This document shows, one piece after another, positions 11,418-15,529 of a stretch of DNA of 53,921 nucleotides (the first letter of the stretch is position 1; every line of letters begins with the position of its first letter). Source of the DNA: Planctomycetaceae bacterium (GTDB lineage: Bacteria > Planctomycetota > Planctomycetia > Planctomycetales > Planctomycetaceae); NCBI GenBank assembly GCA_020426325.1, contig JAGQQG010000038.1, positions 1 through 53,921 of the forward strand. The letters run 5' to 3'. The notes below the pieces were generated by a model. The model saw nothing but the letters and a program-made list of their open reading frames with translations, made no database searches and was not told the origin of the DNA. The translations under genes and the position numbers were made by a program.

Positions 11418-12854
11418 CTAGGGAACCTGCTGCCCCCCGGATGTGGTGGTCAGAAAACTGAACGTGAAGACATCCGTCAGCGTCGTGAACTGCGGATTGA
11501 CGGCGACACGGACGTAACGTCTGTCAGCAGACACAACCGGGTTGACCTGCAGGAAAGTACCATCGTTGACGGTCGAGATGACGGACTGGAATCCGACTGC
11601 TCCAACCGTCGGTGCCGCCTGATTTGTCCCTGCAACAACTGCGGAGTTTCGTCGGGACTGGTTGAACCGATCCAGGTCCGCCTCTGAGTGTCCGGCGGTG
11701 ATGACGCTCGATCGCGCAGAGAAGCGTTGTTGCGGTCGAGCGGCACTGACTGGATCAATTTGGCTGGTGGTCACCGTTCGGGGATGCGTTCGCCGACCGT
11801 TCTTCAGAGTCATCGGGACAACTGAATCGGAATCACCGATGGTGACCGTTTGCCGGATCGTCTTCTCATCGGGTGACCCCTCATGTTCTGTGATGGTCAA
11901 TTGAGCGCGGCGACCAACGACGTCCCCCCAGGCATGCTTGATACGAAGTCGATAGGTCCCGGACACTCCCTGGGGGCAGACATATTCTTCGCGGCAATTA
12001 CTGGCGACGGGACCGAAACCATCGTGCAGATGGATGCCACCGCCCGGCGTGTCAGCTGAATCGAAAGAACACACTGTTCCCCCCGGTTCTTCAACAATCA
12101 GATCCAGATCGGCCGGTCCATTCCAGGTTAGCGTGACTCTTAAATCACGTCGCCTGGCTTGCTGGATGGCTGACTGAAAGGTGGCCAATGCCTGCTGATC
12201 GTTCGTCTTTCGAAGTCGCCGGGTCTCTTCCACAATCGCGTCTTCGGCCTCCTGATGAAGTTGTTCGTAGTTCTTGGTCCAGCCGTATTCGAGAACACCG
12301 GTGGCGGCCCATTGGACTGCATCGTCTTGCGGATGCTGGCGGGCGAGCTTCAGGCCGAGGATGTAGGGTTCTGCCCGTTCGGGAGCCTGCCGAGAGGCCT
12401 GTCGATACAGCCGCAGGGCCATCTCATCACGACCAAATCGGAGGAGATAGGCAGCAGAGTACATCATGGACTCAAAGTTGGCACTGCCGAAATCGGTTAA
12501 CGAGAGGAGAACTCGCTGCACCTCTTCCTTCGGGCGGCCAGCGATTTCCATCGAAAGTGCCAGGACTTCGTACATCCACGGCTGAGACTGCCCATTCAAC
12601 AGAGCAGACTGGATCGCATGAATGACATGTTCGTGCTCACCCTGGTTGTGCAGATTGAGAATCTCCTTTCTCAAAGCTGCTTCAGTGGGGCGATTGCGGC
12701 CGAAATAGTCTGACCAGATCAGGTTGGGTGGTCCGCTTTTGATGTCGGGGAATGGTGCAGCCTCGGCATCCTCAGCTTCCGTCTTACGAATCGCGCCAAC
12801 AGAAAACGCAGGCTGCTGCTGATATGCAGGAGCCTGCGCAAGAACGGTTTCCAA
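11418..12854 (-). CDS. DUF2135-type protein, probable C-terminal part of the VWA gene
   Basis: A 478-residue frame with a helical, TPR-like first half (about 60-200) and a beta-rich domain at about 228-345 (VTLTWNGPADLDLIVEEPGG ... GTYRLRIKHAWGD). The latter matches the YfaP/DUF2135 fold often joined to VWA domains. The tail is low in recognisable motifs. Nothing supports an independent start: the only candidate here is TTG, with no ribosome site at proper distance and no signal peptide. The frame is open upstream to 12941, running through the A9 tract at 12911-12919. One base of -1 slippage there, or one extra A, would join it to the VWA gene as a 1370-residue protein. I favour that reading. 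Confidence 0.7.
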   Translation of the reverse strand: METVLAQAPAYQQQPAFSVGAIRKTEAEDAEAAPFPDIKSGPPNLIWSDYFGRNRPTEAALRKEILNLHNQGEHEHVIHAIQSALLNGQSQPWMYEVLALSMEIAGRPKEEVQRVLLSLTDFGSANFESMMYSAAYLLRFGRDEMALRLYRQASRQAPERAEPYILGLKLARQHPQDDAVQWAATGVLEYGWTKNYEQLHQEAEDAIVEETRRLRKTNDQQALATFQSAIQQARRRDLRVTLTWNGPADLDLIVEEPGGTVCSFDSADTPGGGIHLHDGFGPVASNCREEYVCPQGVSGTYRLRIKHAWGDVVGRRAQLTITEHEGSPDEKTIRQTVTIGDSDSVVPMTLKNGRRTHPRTVTTSQIDPVSAARPQQRFSARSSVITAGHSEADLDRFNQSRRNSAVVAGTNQAAPTVGAVGFQSVISTVNDGTFLQVNPVVSADRRYVRVAVNPQFTTLTDVFTFSFLTTTSGGQQVP

Positions 12855-12892
12855 CTGAGGACAAACAGCCCCAGTCTTTCTATCTCCCCCAG

Positions 12893-15529
12893 TCAGCGAG
12901 AGAGGGTCGGTTTTTTTTTCAGCGGATGACTGACCTCGTTCTCAAGCATCTTTGAAACTTCTGGTGCTGAGTCATTGACGGGGTCAGAGACGCTAAAGAA
13001 TCCGCCGCCACCACCGCCTATTCCGCCACCGCCGCCGCCGAATCCGCCGCCGCCACCGCCGAATCCGCCGCCGCCGCCACCGATTCCGCCTCCACCGCCA
13101 CCGAATCCACCGCCACCACTGGAACCCACATTGCCTTGCATAACACTTGGCGGAAAGACGAGGTCACCGACCGGATACACGCGAGTCTGGAGTGTTTCGT
13201 CAGCGTCTTCCTGCGAAGTGATGTACATCACTTCGTCGTCCACGACCCAGGTGAGTCCCAGCGGTTCAAGCATGATCTTCATCGCACTTCGGAGACGGAT
13301 ATTGCTGATAATCAGATTGACCGGTTCGTCGGTCGGGACGCCGATGTCAGAAAGAATGTCTTCCTTGATGAGGATCGTGATGTTATGCAACTGACCGATG
13401 TATTCGATCGCTTCGGACAGCGGGGTATCGACGAACTCCAACTCCGTGTCCTGATCCATTTCAAAGAGAATTCGTTCTTCGTTCGGACTTTCCTGGTGCA
13501 GGTCGACGGAACGCCACTTGGCACGTCGTTCTGTCAATCGCCGCCAGACAGCCGGTTCGGGATATCTAACCGGAGGCTCGTCCGGAAACGGGACATGTGA
13601 CAGTTCCACTTGGTAGAGGGTGGCCAGGAACCGATCGGCACGCAGACTTCTCAGGCGGTAGGCCTTGTCGATGTGGCCTGCTGCCTCCGTCCACAAAACT
13701 GTTTGAGTTCCCAAGGCAGCCCCGGGACGTCGGCTTTCAACGACTCGGGCGACTGCTTCTGCATCTTCGAATGCCTGTGGGTTGCCGGCAAATCCTTCCC
13801 GCATCAGGGCGCTGATGCGGTCGACCATTTGACTCAGTTCCCGTTCTCTTAACAGCTTCTGGTCAATCAACGCCTGCTGTGCTTCAACTTCAGCCTGCAG
13901 TTGTTGAGCTCGGATCTGATTCGCTTCCAGCACTTCCAGTCGGCTTTGGGCTGACAGTAATGCATCAGCGACGCGACGAAGCAGTTGTGCCTGCACATCA
14001 GGATCGACATCAGTCGCTGATTTCACTGATGCCAGTGCTGCCTTCAGGTCGGCCTCGACCCCGGCAGGATCTTCGATAATGCGACGACGTGAGACGTCGA
14101 TAATCTGGTTGATCTCGAGTGCCAGCTTCTCGCTGAGAATGGTACGACGGACGTCTTCCTGCTCAATGAGAGACTGAGGTGTCTCAAACTCGCGCTGCTG
14201 AAGCCCGTTCGCCTGTGGTTGCAACAAACGACTGGGAGGCAGGTTGTCTGTCGGTGCAGGCTGCGGTGGAACCGCTTCTGTCGGCGGATTGTTGGCTGGC
14301 TCGAAGGGATTGGGCTCTTCTGCTTGGACTTGAGCGACATGGTTCTCGCTCAATTCACCAGCAGCACCAATCAACACTTCCGCTCGAACATTCTGCGGGT
14401 CGACCTTCTTGATGGTCAGGCCGATCTGTTCTGCCTGTTTGAATTTGCCAGTGGCGATCGCCTGTTCACCGAGAGTCTCCAATCGAGCAATCTCATCTTC
14501 GAAGGCCTGCTGGGCAGCCCGGAAGAAGGACATGCCGGCCAGCGGGTTCAATTCATGATCAAGAACCGCCTGACGGTAGGTGCCGTAGAGAAATGTATTG
14601 CCGGCCTGCGATGGCGTTGCATCCAGAGACCATGTTTCGTTGACGGACTTTCCGTTAATCACCCCTTGTACGGAGATCTGTGTCTTCGCAGCGAGATCTC
14701 CACGGCCCAGATAAATCGTCTCACGATCTGACCGCAGCGGGAGAATATGACTGACAAGCAAACCATCTGTTGGCGGAGTCACTTGAATCTGACTGGGGTA
14801 GAACACGGCACGATGAGTTGCAGCCGCGAGTTCTTGTGCACGAGGAACCGGGTTCGCAGATGTCTCCATCCCGGAATCGATCATCGCCAGCCCGCCTGTG
14901 TGATGGCTGAGGATTCCCAGCAACTGTCGATCCTGGTTCGGTCCGACTCCATAGGCGTGGACAGGGATCTGCCGGGCCTGCAATTTCTCGATCAACTGCA
15001 GCATGTCCGACTCCTGAATCAGGTTGGCGGTGCTCATGCCATCACCGATGTACAGGACCGAGCCAGCTGAGCTCGTGTCAAGCAATGAGATTGCAGCCGT
15101 CAATCCGGCGGCCATGTCGGTCGAACCGGCGGGAAAACGTGCTTTCAAAGCAGACCATCCGGAGTCAAGCGTCGTGCTCACTGAGACGAAACCCTCTGTC
15201 AGTGGAACTGCCTGGACATCCAACGCGTACAAAGCAACGCGATCGTCAGCCGGCAGCGACTTGAGAAAGGCTTCAACGACTGTCAGGGCATGCGCTCGAT
15301 GTTCGCCAATCTGACTGGCAGATGTGTCGAACAGGATGACGTGCTCAACTTGAGCAATCGGCGTTTGGGGCACGCTCTGACTTTGCAGGGTTATTGCATA
15401 GTACGTCTCACCATCGGGGGCGTTCAACGACTGCACTCCGGCCTGTTGACCCGCATGTGCGAGCGAAGCCGTCAGGGTGAGAGAGAGAAACGTGCAGGAA
15501 AACCCCAAGCGACTTTTTTGCATCATCAT
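12893..15529 (-). CDS. Secreted VWA-domain protein with STN-like domain and Gly-rich tail
   Basis: An 878-residue protein with a signal peptide (LGFSCTFLSLTLTASLAHA). A VWA domain follows at about 60-230, with the metal-site pattern DTSAS in HVILFDTSASQIGEHRA. Next come a beta-rich part (240-330), a long coiled-coil segment (about 465-610), a short secretin/TonB-N-terminus-like domain (about 700-795, DTPLSEAIEYIGQLHNITIL) and a Gly-rich tract (803-843). It stops 18 bases after an A9 run, and the next frame continues into the DUF2135-type region. GGGAG lies 9 bases before the first of three ATGs. The role is unknown; a cell-envelope assembly is likely. Confidence 0.88.
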   Translation of the reverse strand: MMMQKSRLGFSCTFLSLTLTASLAHAGQQAGVQSLNAPDGETYYAITLQSQSVPQTPIAQVEHVILFDTSASQIGEHRAHALTVVEAFLKSLPADDRVALYALDVQAVPLTEGFVSVSTTLDSGWSALKARFPAGSTDMAAGLTAAISLLDTSSAGSVLYIGDGMSTANLIQESDMLQLIEKLQARQIPVHAYGVGPNQDRQLLGILSHHTGGLAMIDSGMETSANPVPRAQELAAATHRAVFYPSQIQVTPPTDGLLVSHILPLRSDRETIYLGRGDLAAKTQISVQGVINGKSVNETWSLDATPSQAGNTFLYGTYRQAVLDHELNPLAGMSFFRAAQQAFEDEIARLETLGEQAIATGKFKQAEQIGLTIKKVDPQNVRAEVLIGAAGELSENHVAQVQAEEPNPFEPANNPPTEAVPPQPAPTDNLPPSRLLQPQANGLQQREFETPQSLIEQEDVRRTILSEKLALEINQIIDVSRRRIIEDPAGVEADLKAALASVKSATDVDPDVQAQLLRRVADALLSAQSRLEVLEANQIRAQQLQAEVEAQQALIDQKLLRERELSQMVDRISALMREGFAGNPQAFEDAEAVARVVESRRPGAALGTQTVLWTEAAGHIDKAYRLRSLRADRFLATLYQVELSHVPFPDEPPVRYPEPAVWRRLTERRAKWRSVDLHQESPNEERILFEMDQDTELEFVDTPLSEAIEYIGQLHNITILIKEDILSDIGVPTDEPVNLIISNIRLRSAMKIMLEPLGLTWVVDDEVMYITSQEDADETLQTRVYPVGDLVFPPSVMQGNVGSSGGGGFGGGGGGIGGGGGGFGGGGGGFGGGGGGIGGGGGGFFSVSDPVNDSAPEVSKMLENEVSHPLKKKPTLSR
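12911..12919 (-). other. A9 homopolymer, possible -1 frameshift site
   Basis: Nine consecutive T on the plus strand encode Lys871-873 of the VWA protein. Its own frame ends five codons later, whereas the -1 frame stays open into the DUF2135-type region. Such A-runs are known substrates for ribosomal or transcriptional slippage and also common sites of sequencing error. Confidence 0.5.
13001..13120. repeat. Imperfect CCG-rich tandem repeat encoding a Gly-rich tract
   Basis: About 120 bases of imperfect units of roughly 15-21 bases (CCGCCGCCACCG then AATCC or ATTCC) encode Gly runs broken by single Phe or Ile in the VWA protein. The tract is likely length-variable between strains. Confidence 0.85.

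Follow-up and report, generated by a model that had tools for sequence, protein, structure and literature searches.

A conserved A9 run at a frame junction suggests programmed slippage in a VWA-STN gene of the family Planctomycetaceae

In the bacterial family Planctomycetaceae, a gene for a predicted exported VWA-STN protein carries a run of 8–10 A where its reading frame meets that of a downstream module. We found this run in 132 of 132 family loci holding the module, among the matches listed (120 loci, plus 12 from a further search), as expected of programmed slippage, in which a homopolymer of about 8–9 or more A or T is kept at the frame junction. We consider it almost certain that slippage of some kind is programmed here and probable, judging from the sequences, that transcriptional slippage on A9 yields two protein forms from one gene. 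On transcripts with nine A, translation would end at a nearby stop and produce an exported VWA-STN protein of 878 residues. Slipping of RNA polymerase on the tract would add one A to some transcripts; on these, the ribosome would enter the downstream frame and make a 1370-residue protein with a C-terminal module of TPR and beta-rich parts.

The site was read in the window, that is, the whole stretch of 53,921 nucleotides analysed here, which belongs to a draft assembly of 424 contigs. The run lies on the minus strand and appears on the plus strand as T9 (12911–12919); in the upstream frame (0), the junction reads CTG AAA AAA AAA CCG ACC CTC TCT CGC TGA. The features of the gene are given below; domain coordinates were taken from models and are approximate.

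12893–15529, minus strand: upstream open reading frame of 878 aa, the predicted short form, with a signal-peptide-like N-terminus, VWA domain, helical region, STN/N0-like domain and Gly-rich tract
14885–15340, minus strand: VWA domain, residues 64–215 (Pfam VWA_3, E 2e-18, 67.3 bits against a cut-off of 27)
13187–13456, minus strand: STN / secretin N0-like domain (AlphaFold model and Foldseek)
12992–13123, minus strand: Gly-rich tract between the STN-like domain and A9
12911–12919, minus strand: A9, the candidate slippage run, AAA AAA AAA in the upstream frame and matching the family-wide run of 8–10 A
12893–12895, minus strand: TGA, the stop of frame 0, five codons past A9
12893–12941, minus strand: 49-nt overlap of the two frames, inside which the frame switch must fall
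11418–12941, minus strand: downstream (−1) frame, open through A9, with linker, TPR helices, beta-rich domain and C-terminal tail; stop at 11418
12156–12728, minus strand: TPR-like helical repeats (model; Foldseek matches mostly TPR)
11805–12149, minus strand: beta-rich domain (model), earlier called DUF2135-type

On re-reading the sequence, we confirmed what the preliminary description had reported of the site: the A9, the stop five codons on and a −1 frame open from 12941. Its proposal that a slip by one base produces a single 1370-residue protein agrees with the arithmetic, since one extra A in the transcript would join 873 residues to 497. Its claim that the downstream frame has neither an ATG nor a ribosome site of its own was likewise borne out: between A9 and the module there is no ATG, and the sole start-type codon of the −1 frame is a TTG at 12854, with no 5-nt Shine-Dalgarno sequence ahead of it. 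A9 occurs once in the window, against a mean of 0.14 in shuffled sequence, and the 6.85-Mb assembly holds nine distinct runs of at least nine A on both strands (18 overlapping matches), the longest having sixteen A (C151:2960–2975).

We assessed the conservation of the run across the window's GTDB family (f1, Planctomycetaceae; the genera named include Gimesia, Schlesneria, Planctomicrobium, Fuerstiella and Alienimonas) by searching 59 relatives and 170 family genomes, 145 of the latter matching at E 1e-50. Among the matches listed, at least 148 distinct family loci were obtained: 120 with the module, 3 with a run whose sequence ends before the module, 16 module-less paralogues and 9 that end too early, in two of which (L081, L084) a stop with no run before it lies 9–19 nt from the contig end. 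Genomes G140, G095 and G170, matched at a contig end, were excluded from the locus set; within the 120, the contig end cuts the module match of L108 and L166 down to 52 and 131 residues. Of the 25 genomes unmatched at first, 20 were searched again and 17 then matched; we took the 12 loci with long matches and left out 15 with a match of only about 60 residues. The run is present in all 12 (11 of A9, 1 of A8), the upstream half being unmatched within the available stretch in 4 of them. Run lengths in the 123 loci of the main set, including the 3 that end before the module, are A9 in 115, A8 in 5 and A10 in 3, among the matches listed, so that exactly nine A are found in 126 of the 135 runs when the 12 further loci are added. 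The A-run adjoins the stop of frame 0 in all 120 module loci, every run is A9 in 45 of the 49 genera of the 123-locus set, and both sets together cover 51 genera of the family.

These counts bear on two explanations that do without programmed slippage. Because errors are common in homopolymers and the window belongs to a draft assembly, one might suspect an in-frame gene whose run had been miscounted; yet all 20 single-contig genomes tabulated have both the A9 and the −1 relation (G068 agrees too), 45 of 49 genera have A9 exclusively, and 16 of 16 paralogues have no run. We give sequencing or assembly error next to no weight: judged on the sequences, the run is not an error for the family. The preliminary description had left the choice between slippage site and sequence error open. 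The second option is refuted for the family by the single-contig genomes, and the first gains support from the family-wide run, the −1 relation, the open linker, the fused homologues and the run-less paralogues. Phase variation, in which slippage of the DNA itself would toggle the gene between A9 (off) and A10 (on), finds a possible example in locus L137, where A10 leaves a single open frame. That state is met in just 1 of 120 loci, however, and the length is fixed at nine in 45 of 49 genera, which counts against phase variation because phase-variable tracts are expected to vary; we regard it as extremely improbable.

We then determined the frame of the module relative to the upstream frame. 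Among the matches listed, it is −1 in 113 of the 120 loci, +1 in 5 and the same in 2; the relation is readable in 8 of the 12 further loci and is −1 in each. Homologues hence share the two-frame organisation expected of programmed slippage. Two of the deviating loci are probably artefacts, since the frame break of L060 (+1) falls inside the Gly-rich tract and some bases upstream are unread in L131 (same frame); both remain counted in the 120. In L137 (G163:C61), A10 stands in place of A9 and both halves form a single open frame. Four loci (L015, L090, L156 and L174) truly need a +1 shift; all four come from multi-contig drafts, and L156 and L174 belong to two genomes of one genus with identical sequence at the site.

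Between run and module, none of the 120 loci has a linker with a stop in the module's frame, and each of the other frames is stopped in 119 of 120, which indicates that the module's frame is in use from the run on. Substitution patterns are less uniform. The first 50 codons past the run evolve fast and show weak or mixed coding periodicity in the 8 genera compared: the third position is the most variable in g54 (0.314, 0.256 and 0.395 by codon position), g71 and g5, slightly the fastest in g72 and g75, and not the fastest in g73, g1 and g31. Beyond these codons the module has a third-position bias in 8 of 8 genera. Because the periodicity test is mixed, we relied on the open-frame count instead.

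The DNA does present two open reading frames, and they might be two separate genes, the downstream one starting alone or by coupling near the stop; indeed, an ATG, GTG or TTG occurs within the linker or the first 60 nt of the module in 44 of 48 genera. The position and type of these codons vary, however, an ATG being present in the downstream frame in only 10 of 48 genera, and none of the 48 (one locus each) has a start codon with a 5-nt Shine-Dalgarno sequence, an absence that is weak evidence because known starts of these genomes gave no control. Relatives with separately started genes, which the preliminary description had named as the observation that would overturn its proposal, were thus looked for and not seen. 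Since the linker is free of stops in the module's frame all the way from the run in each of the 120 loci, and since fused homologues exist, we hold the two-gene explanation to be very unlikely.

Natural controls are available inside and outside the family. Within it, none of the 16 module-less paralogues of the upstream half, read at least 1496 nt beyond the stop, has a run of seven or more A, among the matches listed. Outside it, the search for single-frame homologues suggested in the preliminary description was successful: in 16 fused homologues, both halves lie in one frame with no run between them. The module match spans at least 275 residues in all 16; the tree contains 19 fused rows, of which L178, L179 and L181 were then dropped from the count because they match only over a tail of 37–63 residues, and the class loci L187, L190 and L191 ended too early to be classified as fused. 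Eleven of the 16 come from other families of the class and three are labelled Thermogutta, Thermoguttaceae or Pirellulaceae; L267, labelled Planctomycetaceae, and L269, with no family, both group with other-family rows in the tree. In the tree of the STN region, the fused rows (including the three since dropped) form two clades, each with a support of 100/100, and none falls among the family rows. The two clades join in 29% of bootstrap trees, in a tree whose root is untested. On the same tree, the paralogue label (run and module absent) needs six changes, and a near-identical pair from one genome consists of L016, which has both run and module, and L143, which lacks them. The simplest history read from these sequences would be that a fused gene became slippage-dependent in the family and that the paralogues lost module and run together. 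VWA-STN copies also occur clustered on contigs (L101/L104 on G166:C47, L109/L128/L130 on G164:C44 and L142/L144 on G111:C404); of these seven copies, only L109 has the module and the run.

We next considered whether the polymerase or the ribosome slips. The run is out of codon phase 0 in 19 loci, all with exactly nine A (including L131, with its upstream gap); A9 is thus kept in every codon phase, so that the nucleotides are what is kept. Of the 104 phase-0 loci, 99 have AAA as their third Lys codon, compared with 42% among the other Lys codons of these genes. The sequence on either side of the run drifts, and its best-kept position is the one just after the run, with C in 41 of 49 genera. No 5-nt Shine-Dalgarno sequence was found in the 20 nt upstream of the run in any of the 49 genera, and 4-nt cores occur in 5 of 49 versus 3 and 3 in controls. 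Downstream folding, assessed for hairpins and not pseudoknots, falls inside the range spanned by three control windows (mean z of −0.93 over 48 genera versus −1.30, −0.26 and −0.46). Stimulators of the dnaX type, namely an upstream Shine-Dalgarno sequence with a downstream hairpin or pseudoknot, were accordingly not detected in an analysis that did not model pseudoknots.

Alternatively, uniform transcripts would yield the long form if the ribosome made a programmed −1 shift on A AAA AAA or A AAA AAG. The heptamer A AAA AAA is contained in A9 whatever its phase, and the pattern X XXY YYZ is present in both the A9 and the A8G runs. G follows each of the six A8 runs and so completes the dnaX-type ribosomal heptamer A AAA AAG, although a G replacing the final A of the last Lys codon is also a simple synonymous change. 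The shift direction also leans this way. Antonov et al. 2013 (PMC3711429) read a shift direction that varies among homologues as pointing to transcriptional slippage and a uniform one as pointing to ribosomal frameshifting; by this rule the −1 relation in 113 of 120 loci speaks against the polymerase. Several features are nevertheless awkward for a ribosomal mechanism. In each phase two of the nine A fall outside the heptamer, yet they are kept; AAG is rare at the third Lys codon (5 of 104); no Shine-Dalgarno sequence or hairpin is conserved, pseudoknots not being modelled; and four loci, all multi-contig drafts, would need +1 against the −1 of nearly all others. We therefore regard ribosomal frameshifting as the less likely mechanism, although one of some weight. 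A9 in all phases, the lack of a conserved stimulator and the four +1 loci are best fitted by transcriptional slippage, and it is probably RNA polymerase, not the ribosome, that slips. Both products would be made and needed, and the best reading of the sequences is that slippage sets a ratio of short to long form, for which the published values for Thermus dnaX and spa13 quoted below offer a guide. Taken as a whole, we lean towards a scenario in which the family made a fused exported protein slippage-dependent and kept A9 since both the short form and a rarer long form are needed, with RNA polymerase setting their ratio without any stimulator beyond the run.

The protein itself is predicted to be exported and to combine VWA and STN parts with a TPR module that is optional. 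Its N-terminus looks, by eye, like a signal peptide, which suggests export. The modelled domain upstream of the Gly-rich tract resembles the STN/N0 domains of PupA, PilQ and GspD: Foldseek matched it to the PupA signalling domain (TMt 0.72, E 0.0064), the N0 domain of PilQ (TMt 0.53) and the N-terminal domain of GspD, none of the matches reaching E 0.001, and by sequence the Pfam N0 match is sub-threshold (E 0.096). The model of the downstream half (mean pLDDT 81) comprises TPR-like helices and a beta-rich domain; Pfam TPR_14 is matched in 12 of 39 members and is absent from the window's own protein. The DUF2135-type label given earlier to this region was not upheld, as there is no DUF2135 Pfam match in the window's protein or in the 39 members; the module consists of the TPR helices and the beta-rich domain. 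No match to the module was found on plasmids at E 1e-5. The last ~60 residues of the downstream protein (11420–11612, minus strand; motif VSADRRYVRV) also match 15 loci of the same family (L284–L298) at 48–59%, 13 of which have open frames of 1039–2144 aa.

Other A-runs of these genomes were surveyed as well. The single-contig genome G011 (5.5 Mb) has two runs of exactly nine A on both strands, one of them being the site described here; other genomes among the 13 single-contig ones searched have more A9 runs, up to 54. A crude junction-rule screen of the other A9 runs of the window's own genome and of 30 loci from 13 single-contig genomes returned, besides the A9 gene, two weak candidates, L301 and L073/L074 (one run). 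The latter is an A10 in the window's own genome (C372:28785–28794), where an 825-nt upstream frame closes 8 nt later and the other frame runs for 1116 nt; this junction may be due to chance.

Among the best-ranked literature matches, none dealt with slippage in this gene, and none described transcriptional slippage in a planctomycete. The Antonov et al. 2013 table includes two planctomycete genomes (PMC3711429), and the available text of the Atkins 2016 review (PMC5009743) contains no word beginning 'planctomyc'. If transcriptional slippage is indeed at work, few other bacterial genes that use it outside mobile elements would be as broadly conserved. Automatic annotation likely lists it as two open reading frames or as broken. 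Few conserved bacterial cellular genes are known to need a frame slip, among them prfB, dnaX and copA. As the run is kept while its surroundings drift in 51 genera, and as controls exist in the family (paralogues without module and run in the same genomes) and outside it (fused homologues), the gene offers a clean test bed for what slippage needs, why nine A are kept, and whether two useful forms keep slippage in place.

The frameshifting of E. coli dnaX uses an upstream Shine-Dalgarno sequence and a downstream hairpin. The present site resembles it in its poly-A heptamer and −1 direction and differs from it in that neither the Shine-Dalgarno sequence nor the hairpin was found to be conserved. 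A close parallel in kind is dnaX of Thermus thermophilus, in which transcriptional slippage on A9 accounts for half of the product, as described by Baranov et al. 2005 (PMC1088944); in both cases a cellular gene carries A9, the stop lies near the run and two C-terminal forms arise, or would arise, per gene. In Thermus, the templated frame gives the long form and slippage the short one, whereas here the templated frame gives the short form, and the proteins are unrelated. In mxiE and spa13 of Shigella, a slipped transcript joins overlapping open reading frames and the longer product depends on slippage, as would be the case here, the slippage product of spa13 amounting to 25–30% (available parts of PMC1088944 and PMC5009743); those are, however, plasmid-borne secretion genes of one pathogen group, while the present arrangement spans a bacterial family. 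Insertion sequences with 9A slippage likewise have A9 inside the overlap of two open reading frames, and a screen of 9A and 9T gave seven conserved cases, namely six insertion sequences and mapW (Baranov et al. 2005, PMC1088944, in the part available). Insertion sequences encode mobile-element transposases, whereas the gene described here encodes a protein with VWA, STN-like and TPR parts, and nothing about it suggests mobility. Poly-A slippage leading to a longer protein is described also for tssM1 of Citrobacter and for rescued genes of endosymbionts (available parts of PMC4256274 and PMC5009743); these cases concern single species or reduced genomes, whereas the run described here extends over 51 genera of one family.
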